Origin: Candidatus Aminicenantota bacterium
GTDB taxonomy: Bacteria; Acidobacteriota; Aminicenantia; Aminicenantales; Aminicenantaceae
DNA: 64,000 nucleotides
Assembly: GCA_016927475.1 (NCBI GenBank)
Contig: JAFGMO010000047.1
Span: 1 to 64,000, forward strand
Reading direction: 5' to 3'
The translations under genes and the position numbers were made by a program. Below the pieces are notes generated by a model. That model was not told where the DNA came from, made no database searches, and was given only the letters and a program-made list of their open reading frames with translations. Numbering within the stretch: position 1 is the first letter of the stretch; each line of letters opens with the position of its first letter. This document shows, in pieces, positions 22,153 through 62,512 of the stretch.

Positions 22153-22167
22153 TGATTGATCCCCCTT

Positions 22168-22259
22168 TTATAAATTTTACAGACATCAACAGGCTATTTC
22201 AATACGATATTTCAATGATGGATATTTTCCGGCAACAAAGGTAATGAATGATGCAGGTT
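22168..22259 (-). repeat. Degenerate copy (D) of the AACCTGYATYATTCA-bounded element
   Basis: Reading minus strand, the end motif AACCTGCATCATTCA (22245-22259) overlaps the TAA stop of the SH3-barrel gene. The interior at 22170-22222 matches the interior of the copy at 23767-23912 but in inverted orientation, and the second end motif is missing. It looks like a rearranged or decayed copy of the family described at 57714 and 62252. Confidence 0.55.
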
Positions 22260-23553: not shown

Positions 23554-24020
23554 TATTTAATTCTCCTTTCAGACTAGAAACCATCCTGTCACGACGGCTC
23601 GTCTTTGGTCTGTTACCGCCATAAGTTTTCAGGTCAAAAGAGCGGTCATTCGGGATATTTGTGAAATATCCGCGCCCGTTAAGAAAATTTTAATTTTTGA
23701 AACAACTTTTGATTCATGTGTTTTGAGGGTATCAAACATAAAGTATCATGTCAAAAAGCCTCTCTTAACCTGCATCATTCATAAATTTTGCCAACACCAA
23801 CAGATAATTTCAATATTATGTGTCATTTAATGATGGTTTTAAGTAAAATTGATAGTGAAACATTTTCCATGAACATTTTAAGAAAACATTGGCAAAATTT
23901 ACCTTTCAGGTTAATAAATAAGTTTTGAATGATTTTTTGACACAGCGCGAAGTCCTGTGTTATTTTCTCCCCTTCGTAAAATGTCTTTTTGACTAAGGAT
24001 CAATGAAAGTTGAATAGCGG
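23554..24020. other. Intergenic region holding repeat copy C
   Basis: This 467-base spacer separates the divergent SH3-barrel and MFS genes. It contains repeat copy C (23767-23912). Immediately before that copy is a six-codon open frame, ATG at 23748 to TAA at 23766-23768, whose stop is fused to the element end. The remainder is A+T-rich with no recognisable gene. Confidence 0.5.
23767..23912 (+). repeat. Short copy (C) of the interspersed stem-bearing element
   Basis: Starts with AACCTGCATCATTCA (23767-23781). A perfect 13-base inverted repeat follows: TAAATTTTGCCAA at 23782-23794 and TTGGCAAAATTTA at 23889-23901. It ends with CAGGTT at 23907-23912. The interior is closely similar to copy A at 57837-57957 read on the minus strand. 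It lacks the GC-rich module that copies A and B carry next to the second stem arm. It shows no coding capacity. Confidence 0.8.
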
Positions 24021-57664: not shown

Positions 57665-57713
57665 TTGTATTTACGCTTCCATTCTTTTCCCGAAAATTTC
57701 TAGCCCGATATTT

Positions 57714-57972
57714 AACCTGTATTATGCACGAATCGAGGTTGCCGCAGATGTGAGGCGTCGATGTACGAAGCTGTGCTGGTTCGCCGCGAGTCCGTCGCAA
57801 CGAAACAGATGCGGAAAGATCGTTTCGCCTGAAAGGTAAATTTGGCCGATATTTTCTTGAAAATGGTCATGGAAAATGTTTCATTGCCAATTTTATCTAA
57901 AATCAATATTAAATGACACATGCTGTTGAAATTATCTGTTGGTGTCGGCCAAATTTATGAATAATGCAGGTT
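57714..57972 (-). repeat. Long copy (A) of the interspersed stem-bearing element
   Basis: A 259-base element. Its ends are inverted repeats: AACCTGTATTATGCA at 57714-57728, and AACCTGCATTATTCA on the minus strand at 57958-57972. Inside, next to the second end, is a perfect 13-base stem (TAAATTTGGCCGA 57837-57849 with TCGGCCAAATTTA 57945-57957) around a 95-base interior. Next to the first end is a GC-rich module (57720-57835) with CCGCA/TGCGG closing arms and an internal CGAAGC...TTCG hairpin. The element fills the spacer between two minus-strand genes and overlaps the TAA stop of the upstream one. No open frame. Confidence 0.82.
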
Positions 57973-59248
57973 AAGAGACATCCCTAATTTTCCATACTTG
58001 GATAACGGGTTTATCTCCGTCAGCAAAGGGCTCGAACACATAAAAAATTCCTCTTTCCTCGTCGAAGCAACACGCTCCCAAGTGGTGTTTCTGCTGGACG
58101 GACCGGATGCCTAACAACCGTTCATCGATATCAAGCCAGTCGAAAGGCTGAGGTTCCCAGGTTTCCATCTCCCCCAGAGCCACTCTGGCCAGGTCGGCCG
58201 GGTCATAAAAAATGAAACGTCCGGCAAATTCCGATGACCACCAACCCCTATCCCCTTGACATTCCAGGCAGGGGCCATTAGCGTCCCCGTACCAGCAGTC
58301 CCCCAATCCCTTGGTCCCGATAAAAATCACCGCCGCTCTGTTGCCCCGGTGCAGCCATGCTCCACCCGTCCATTCATCGGAATGATGGTAGCCTTCCATG
58401 GTATGCTGCTCCACATCGTAATCCTCCGAAGATGTGTAACACAGCAAGGTTATGAACTCCAAAACAGACCCGTCCGGCGGCGGATTTCCTTGATTCCAAG
58501 GTCCGTAGGCGAATAACGCCGGACCCTGGCCCGACCAGCCGCCGTCGCGGAAACGTCCGCAGCCCAGCCGCATACCGGGTGTATAAGTATCCGCCCAGAC
58601 TTTCTGAACGGCAAAAATATAATCGTTGGTGTTATACTCGTGGTGAGGCGTGTTTATAAACCAGGCGCCCCTTAATTGAGGATCGGCCAGGTTCAGTCCG
58701 CACCAGCCATGGGTCAGGTCCGAAACTTCCTGAAAATGAGCTCCCCAACAAAGGTAAAGCTTCCCGCCGGACTGGCCTTCTTGGGCCGGAAAATATTCCA
58801 TGCCTGTCCGCGGAATTTCAAAAGTGCCGACCTGAAAAATATCCCGAAAATGCTGTAGGGTCGCCGAGACTGGGAAAGATCCTCCACGGTTAAACACTAG
58901 TTCCCTTCTTTCCGAAACCGCAGCAGGTGCGGGGATGGAAATTTCGCTTACTTGGTGCTCCCAGGCATGACCGGTGCCGTAAATCGAACCGGGATACCCA
59001 TCTTCAGGCCCCTCGGAATCACCTCCGGGATAATAAGTCATAGCCCAGCCCCCGTAGGCCCAGGACCGGACCTCGGACCCGGCTTCTCCTTCAGGAAGCC
59101 TGAACACACCCGCATATTCCAGATCCTGGGGCCGAAGAAGGTCAACGGGAAGAACATCATGAGTATTTTCTCGATCCGATTTGCCGGATCCACAACCATT
59201 GAAAAATACCAGCCCTATAAAAAAGAATATTATGCTGAGGTTTCTCAT
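57971..59248 (-). CDS. Lipoprotein of unknown function, Trp/Gly-rich
   Basis: A 425-residue lipoprotein (lipobox FNGC). The mature protein is beta-rich and unusually rich in Trp, Gly, Tyr and His (SWAYGGWAMTYYPGG, TGGAWLHRGN, GWWSSEFAGRFIFYD). Several Cys occur in the second half (GDCWYGDANGPCLECQG, GACCFDEE). The pattern of DLEYAGVFRLPEG at the start and IFYVFEPFADGDKPVIQVW at the end suggests a propeller-like fold, but I do not recognise a family. Its stop lies inside element A. The next gene upstream (corrinoid protein) ends 29 bases before it on the same strand. Confidence 0.65.
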   Translation of the reverse strand: MRNLSIIFFFIGLVFFNGCGSGKSDRENTHDVLPVDLLRPQDLEYAGVFRLPEGEAGSEVRSWAYGGWAMTYYPGGDSEGPEDGYPGSIYGTGHAWEHQVSEISIPAPAAVSERRELVFNRGGSFPVSATLQHFRDIFQVGTFEIPRTGMEYFPAQEGQSGGKLYLCWGAHFQEVSDLTHGWCGLNLADPQLRGAWFINTPHHEYNTNDYIFAVQKVWADTYTPGMRLGCGRFRDGGWSGQGPALFAYGPWNQGNPPPDGSVLEFITLLCYTSSEDYDVEQHTMEGYHHSDEWTGGAWLHRGNRAAVIFIGTKGLGDCWYGDANGPCLECQGDRGWWSSEFAGRFIFYDPADLARVALGEMETWEPQPFDWLDIDERLLGIRSVQQKHHLGACCFDEERGIFYVFEPFADGDKPVIQVWKIRDVS

Positions 59249-62251: not shown

Positions 62252-62512
62252 CCTGTATTATTCACGAGTCAAGCTTGCCGCAGATGGGAGGCGTCATCGT
62301 GCGAAGCTGTGCTAGTTCACTGCGAGCACGACGCAACGAAGCAGATGCGGTGAGATCGGCTAGCCCGGAGGGTAAAAAAGGCCGATTATATATTTCAACA
62401 TCACTTCATTTTCAGCATAAACCACTTATATCTATTCTGGGTACAAATTTTTCAAATTTACCTAAAATAAAGATTTATATGTGGTATCGGCCTTTTTTAT
62501 GAATGATGCAGG
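62252..62512 (-). repeat. Long copy (B) of the interspersed stem-bearing element
   Basis: A 261-base element between convergent genes. The ends are inverted repeats: CCTGTATTATTCA at 62252-62264, and CCTGCATCATTCA on the minus strand at 62500-62512. A perfect 14-base stem joins TAAAAAAGGCCGAT (62373-62386) and ATCGGCCTTTTTTA (62486-62499). The GC-rich module at 62265-62372 is clearly similar to that of copy A (CCGCAGATG, GAGGCGTC, CGAAGCTGTGCT, CGCAACGAA, CAGATGCGG), while the interior of the stem differs. It begins 10 bases after the SGNH stop and ends at the TGA of the DUF5989 gene. No open frame. Confidence 0.82.

Follow-up and report, generated by a model that had tools for sequence, protein, structure and literature searches.

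The repeat copies found in the window, by which we mean the whole analysed stretch of 64,000 nucleotides, are members of a large family of MITEs in uncultured Aminicenantes bacteria. Taken together, the evidence favours reading them as IS1380-family MITEs whose plus-strand fold, most likely RNA, has been under selection; a probability of about 0.62 is given to this joint reading. Arguments over whether small bacterial repeats are DNA debris or have an effect as a folded strand commonly rely on predicted folds. The Aminicenantes family offers a strand-resolved test of this question, in which an excess of G.U over A.C indicates that one strand has been selected in single-stranded form.

The Copies in the Window

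Copy A, located by a profile match and from its sequence, covers positions 57716-57970 of the plus strand and is made up of a split left terminal repeat, a hairpin module, an AT-rich part and a right terminal repeat. It lies between the two halves of a TTAA target-site duplication (57712-57715 on the left, 57971-57974 on the right), which is recognised from the sequence and from the 4-bp duplication seen family-wide. The outer left terminal repeat CCTGTATTATGCA (57716-57728, plus strand) is followed by the hairpin I module (57729-57836, plus strand), which was delimited by its fold, by covariation, by the covariance model R1 and by comparison with the module-free copy L242. The module consists of a long hairpin, whose variable helix has its arms at 57759-57766 and 57790-57797, and the mini-hairpin CCTGAAAGG, and it is inserted within the left terminal repeat. 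The inner half of that repeat forms the left arm of stem II, TAAATTTGGCCGA (57837-57849, plus strand). Across a loop of 95 nucleotides it meets its exact complement TCGGCCAAATTTA (57945-57957, plus strand), the inner half of the right terminal repeat; both arms were assigned from sequence and covariation. The outer right terminal repeat TGAATAATGCAGG (57958-57970, plus strand) closes the element. The right TTAA of copy A (57971-57974) is also the stop codon of a minus-strand ORF (57971-59248), and other copies of the family likewise begin no more than a few bases from a stop codon.

Copy B (62252-62512, plus strand; profile match and sequence) has its hairpin I module at 62265-62372 (plus strand), as placed by alignment, and its stem II arms TAAAAAAGGCCGAT and ATCGGCCTTTTTTA at 62373-62386 and 62486-62499 (plus strand) around a loop of 99. 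Its AT-rich interior differs, and identical 4-bp flanks are absent. Copy C (23769-23910) is a shortened element that lies on the minus strand relative to copy A, with TTAA flanks at 23765-23768 and 23911-23914. In plus-strand reading its stem II arms are TAAATTTTGCCAA (23782-23794) and TTGGCAAAATTTA (23889-23901), with a loop of 94. It does not have the hairpin I helix and begins, at its left end, with the mini-hairpin CCTGAAAGG of the hairpin I module. Because copy C stops at the mini-hairpin and carries its own TTAA duplication, it was apparently already shortened when it moved. A weak remnant of a related element was also found at 22167-22257 (plus strand), where a minus-strand profile match (22167-22250) is joined by right-end-like sequence ending at 22257.

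The sequence-only reading had described perfect stems in copies A, B and C, with arms that vary between the copies while pairing is kept within each. Both statements agree with the sequence: all six arms lie where they had been placed, and each is perfectly paired. The stem so described is stem II, which the terminal inverted repeats form with their inner halves. The principal structured element is the hairpin I module beside it, which that reading did not contain; it stands directly to the left of the stem II left arm in copies A and B and is missing in copy C.

Family Size, Hosts and Anatomy

The window's own genome (5.0 Mb in 104 contigs) was searched at the DNA level, which yielded 335 first-look candidates, of which 40 were scored copies. 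Pattern searches returned 94 left ends and 49 right ends (none with a control pattern), and 242 unique left ends were collected after the loci had been fetched, 98 of them in the window's own genome. At least 112 stretches were found in a pattern scan of species genomes. Among the matches listed, the hosts are Candidatus Aminicenantes MAGs, with one exception that is named only Acidobacteriota. Many contigs of the window's own genome start or stop inside a copy (e.g., C7, C15, C39, C48, C78 and C104); the repeat therefore probably breaks the assembly, and the copy numbers are lower bounds.

The elements are 167-366 bp long, mostly 251-255 bp, and occur in many copies without a transposase gene. 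On the left, the consensus reads CCTG[GT]ATTATTCA, then a module of about 107 nt, then TAAATTTGGCCGA or a variant of it. On the right, an interior of variable length is followed by the complement of the left arm and by TGAATAATNCAGG. The 13 outer column pairs of these terminal inverted repeats are mostly complementary. In most copies the left terminal repeat is split by the hairpin module, as can be seen from the module-free copies (L242), which show the uninterrupted end CCTGCATCATTCATAAATTTGGCC. Subfamilies differ in the sequence of stem II, the inner part of the terminal repeat. The purine-rich internal loops of hairpin I (GA/GA and GAA/GA) are conserved. It also has a helix that is hypervariable yet almost always paired, and the mini-hairpin comes after it.

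Several variants of this layout were observed. Several copies have a G-rich insert, e.g., GGGTTAGGTTGGGTCGG or GGGGCTAGGCCGGGTCGG, in the left arm of hairpin I, the right arm or both (L010, L014, L025, L174, L183, L190, L195, L200, L221 and L223); the inserts are non-complementary between the arms, and a two-layer G-quadruplex would be possible. In L169, L238, L198 and L213, hairpin I is interrupted close to its tip by another palindromic repeat, of the GTCATTGCGAG ... GGCAATCTCC type. Tiny derivatives with internal deletions (about 67-84 bp; L150:617-683 and L217) retain both ends and the YTAR flanks.

Mobility and a Probable Transposase Partner

Identical 4-bp flanks were found in 48 of 141 elements, where 11.6 were expected. 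In the same 141 elements, flank identity at lengths of 2, 3, 6 and 8 was at or near chance, and a length of 5 was seen once; the target duplication is thus of fixed length. Target sites are mostly TTAA, TTAG, CTAA and CTAG (YTAR). Relatives within the same bacterial family have IS1380-type transposase genes (PF13701) close to similar ends. At one such locus, L253, an intact ORF of 446 aa that matches PF13701 stands between CCTGAATAATTCATAAA and TTTATGAATAAATCAGG. These ends match those of the MITEs over about 17 bp and are not identical to them; the two ends of L253 itself also agree over only about 17 bp and diverge further in.

In the window's own genome, searches with PF13701, PF01609 and PF13546 did not find an intact autonomous partner with matching ends. 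PF13701 gave one broken gene (L031/L032, G000:C74:26843-27975) with no recognisable matching ends, PF01609 gave two other transposases where matching ends were absent, and PF13546 gave no match. No recognised transposase was seen in the regions adjoining solitary ends. The window's own genome has only the broken IS1380-type gene, and we infer that the MITEs may be mobilised in trans by an IS1380-type transposase.

The earlier likening to REP/MITE elements therefore divides. The terminal inverted repeats, the 4-bp target duplications and the IS1380-type partner in a relative bear out the MITE half. The REP half is unsupported, since the elements make 4-bp target duplications, and REP/RAYT and IS200/IS605-type repeats were set aside for the same reason.

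Covariation of the Two Stems

Covariation was measured on an alignment of the 142 elements that have both hairpins. The null alignments kept the tree and the substitutions and moved the substitutions to other columns, using our own R-scape-like implementation and not R-scape. Seven column pairs covaried significantly. Each of them corresponds to a base pair of the folds: the hypervariable helix of hairpin I accounts for four, stem II for two and the mini-hairpin for one. Under a null that keeps column rates, six of the seven were still significant. The suggestion that pairing itself is under selection is upheld: the check proposed with it, which asked for further copies, a covariance model and covariation beyond phylogenetic noise, came out in its favour.

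In the same 142 elements, the ten inner pairs of stem II were kept within a copy at 0.957 in the window's own genome and 0.946 in other genomes, compared with 0.872 and 0.836, respectively, when the arms were taken from different copies. The perfect pairing of copies A, B and C does not extend to the whole family: with G.U counted, all ten inner pairs are intact in 39 of 61 copies in the window's own genome and in 50 of 81 elsewhere. Hairpin I covaries more strongly than stem II. Among 68 diverse sequences, 96.3% of its cells were paired, both sides had changed in 21 of 33 pairs, and 246 cells were doubly changed; shuffles gave 82 such cells, and slid structures no more than 43. Folded as RNA, two consensus-like module sequences reached z-scores of -4.4 and -5.0, and one of them, on its reverse strand, -3.5.

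Strand Bias and the Nature of the Fold

Where selection acts on pairing within a single strand, more G.U (G.T) than A.C intermediates are to be expected, since a G.U on the opposite strand appears as A.C. Departures from Watson-Crick pairs were counted on ancestral states reconstructed by parsimony, with p-values that treat the events as independent. Changes to G.U versus A.C stood at 126.6:44.6 in hairpin I (p 2e-10) and at 46.7:16.5 in stem II (p 1e-4). The excess of G.U is about threefold; it is present in both arms overall, and in the window's own genome and the other genomes separately, with column-bootstrap intervals that lie above 0.5. On internal branches, the ratio of G.U to A.C over all stems was 5.4. 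Two positions of the outer terminal repeats are G.U in many copies and A.C in hardly any. Mutation bias does not account for the excess, because unpaired control columns showed the opposite direction (198:253 on terminal branches) and the AT loop showed no bias (105:118).

The direction of neighbouring genes was also considered. Copies co-directional with both neighbours had a G.U:A.C count of 21:20 and antisense copies one of 25:11, and the orientation of insertions showed no clear bias (simple ORF calls). Selection through readthrough mRNA of the neighbours was rejected, as no consistent effect of neighbour orientation on the wobble bias was seen. Given the G.U excess and the failure of neighbouring genes to account for it, the fold of the plus strand seems to have mattered by itself. 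One particular strand, the plus strand, thus seems to have been selected to fold in single-stranded form, as RNA or as single-stranded DNA.

Between these two, RNA is probably the form concerned. The conserved internal loops of hairpin I (GA/GA and GAA/GA) resemble RNA motifs, and single-strand transposition of the IS200/IS605 type is not known to leave target duplications. That the strand acts instead as single-stranded DNA, for example as a hairpin exposed during replication or transposition, is somewhat unlikely. Such a role would fit a wobble bias that is independent of the direction of neighbouring genes, and DNA hairpins also tolerate G.T, so that the asymmetry alone cannot separate the two. 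However, the 4-bp (or 3-bp) duplications are of the kind that DDE transposons make and speak against the single-strand mode.

It is less probable still that the arms of stem II have to match the same transposase and therefore change together without folding. It is true that stem II consists of the inner terminal-repeat halves and that the subfamilies differ within just this region. However, such co-evolution of transposon ends leaves hairpin I unexplained, which is present in one end only and yet covaries most. The IS1380 relative, with ends that agree over no more than the 17 bp or so given above, indicates that the transposase does not require matched inner arms, and stem II has a G.U excess of its own. 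Hairpin-templated correction, in which template switching copies the mutations of one arm to the other without functional selection, could have contributed and would suit the near-perfect arms of many copies, the frequent changes on both sides on single branches and the alleles of the hypervariable helix that differ at several positions in both arms, but as the explanation it is unneeded and very improbable, since it predicts equal numbers of G.U and A.C intermediates and not the strand-specific, threefold difference observed, nor does it predict conserved unpaired internal loops.

For a selected plus-strand fold, the following course of events can be proposed. An IS1380-type transposase would join the CCTG...CAGG ends to YTAR/TTAA targets. 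The module of about 107 nt in the left terminal repeat would fold into a long hairpin and then a mini-hairpin, and the inner halves of the terminal repeats would form stem II as a second stem. Substitutions would survive where pairs are kept, with G.U as a tolerated intermediate. The fold might serve as a compact transcript that makes insertions harmless, or alternatively as an RNA that aids the spread of the element; either use is a candidate role suggested by the model.

The Same Core in Other Acidobacteriota

When the covariance model R1 (hairpin I) was run against 247 Acidobacteriota genomes, strong matches were found only in three genomes of the window's own bacterial family, and weaker ones in other Acidobacteriota families. 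Three of the weaker matches (37-42 bits) align with the model from end to end and show both the core GAUGCRAGGCG ... GCAACRMAGCAGAUG and a mini-hairpin. A pattern search for the core found it in 12 of 396 genomes, with no hits for a control pattern, and several distant Acidobacteriota genomes have dozens of core matches. Outside Aminicenantales, the core sits in repeats with other ends, e.g., GGGCTCGCGCAGAAATAA, GAGCCTGTCCGAGTATTA, CAGGCCGTGGTGGAAGTGTG and GTACAGCTCCCCGGAAATT. One distant core-bearing family has 3-bp duplications (TAA or TTA; 16 of 22 vs 8.7 expected). In core-bearing families flanked by CTAG, this motif is nearly constant and masks any duplication. The wobble bias of the distant families comes mainly from one conserved G.U pair. 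In L333, L343 and similar elements of other Acidobacteriota, the second hairpin seemingly carries the core motif on the opposite strand; such elements would thus hold two inverted core copies.

No related sequence was found in phages, plasmids or viral contigs at the sensitivity used. Rfam gave no match at gathering score in the window and none up to E=5 for copy A, and the distant relatives had chance-level matches only. In the literature searched, no paper was found on Aminicenantes MITEs, nor one containing the core strings. The occurrence of a core that is absent from Rfam within repeats of unrelated ends points to a module with a role of its own. The core may have spread by capture, or the ends may have been replaced. 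It is tentatively suggested that the hairpin core and mini-hairpin form a structured RNA module (or one of single-stranded DNA) that is undescribed and evolves independently. Across Acidobacteriota it would be carried by several MITE families whose ends are unrelated and whose duplications differ in length, and it could have a function of its own in helping these elements to spread or to be tolerated.

Comparison with Known Systems

The nearest precedents for folded MITE transcripts are ERIC and NEMIS. Like the Aminicenantes family, ERIC/IRU and NEMIS/Correia are small and non-coding, end in terminal inverted repeats and are flanked by target duplications (PMC2229807). Their transcripts are predicted or have been shown to form long stem-loops, and for the RNAs of ERIC and NEMIS, effects on mRNA stability or on RNase III cleavage have been reported (PMC2229807). 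Unlike these, the Aminicenantes family has other hosts and other ends; its stem is split by a separately covarying hairpin module, its wobble bias is resolved by strand, and its core is common to repeats with unrelated ends.

The IS1380 family (piggyBac relatives) shares the CCT-ends, the 4-bp duplications and the TTAA-like targets, and related piggyBac elements target TTAA, TTAG, CTAA, TCAA and GTAA (PMC10813416). Unlike IS1380, the Aminicenantes MITEs have no transposase gene and carry a hairpin module inside the left end. The stem-loop repeat families of bacterial genomes (PMC2267715) are likewise genome-wide repeats with a predicted common secondary structure. The text of that paper makes no mention of "compensat-", "covariation" or "Acidobacteri-", whereas the Aminicenantes family was tested for covariation and strand. 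What is unusual here is the strand-resolved signal, together with a core that is common to repeats with unrelated ends; the feature is real and well supported.
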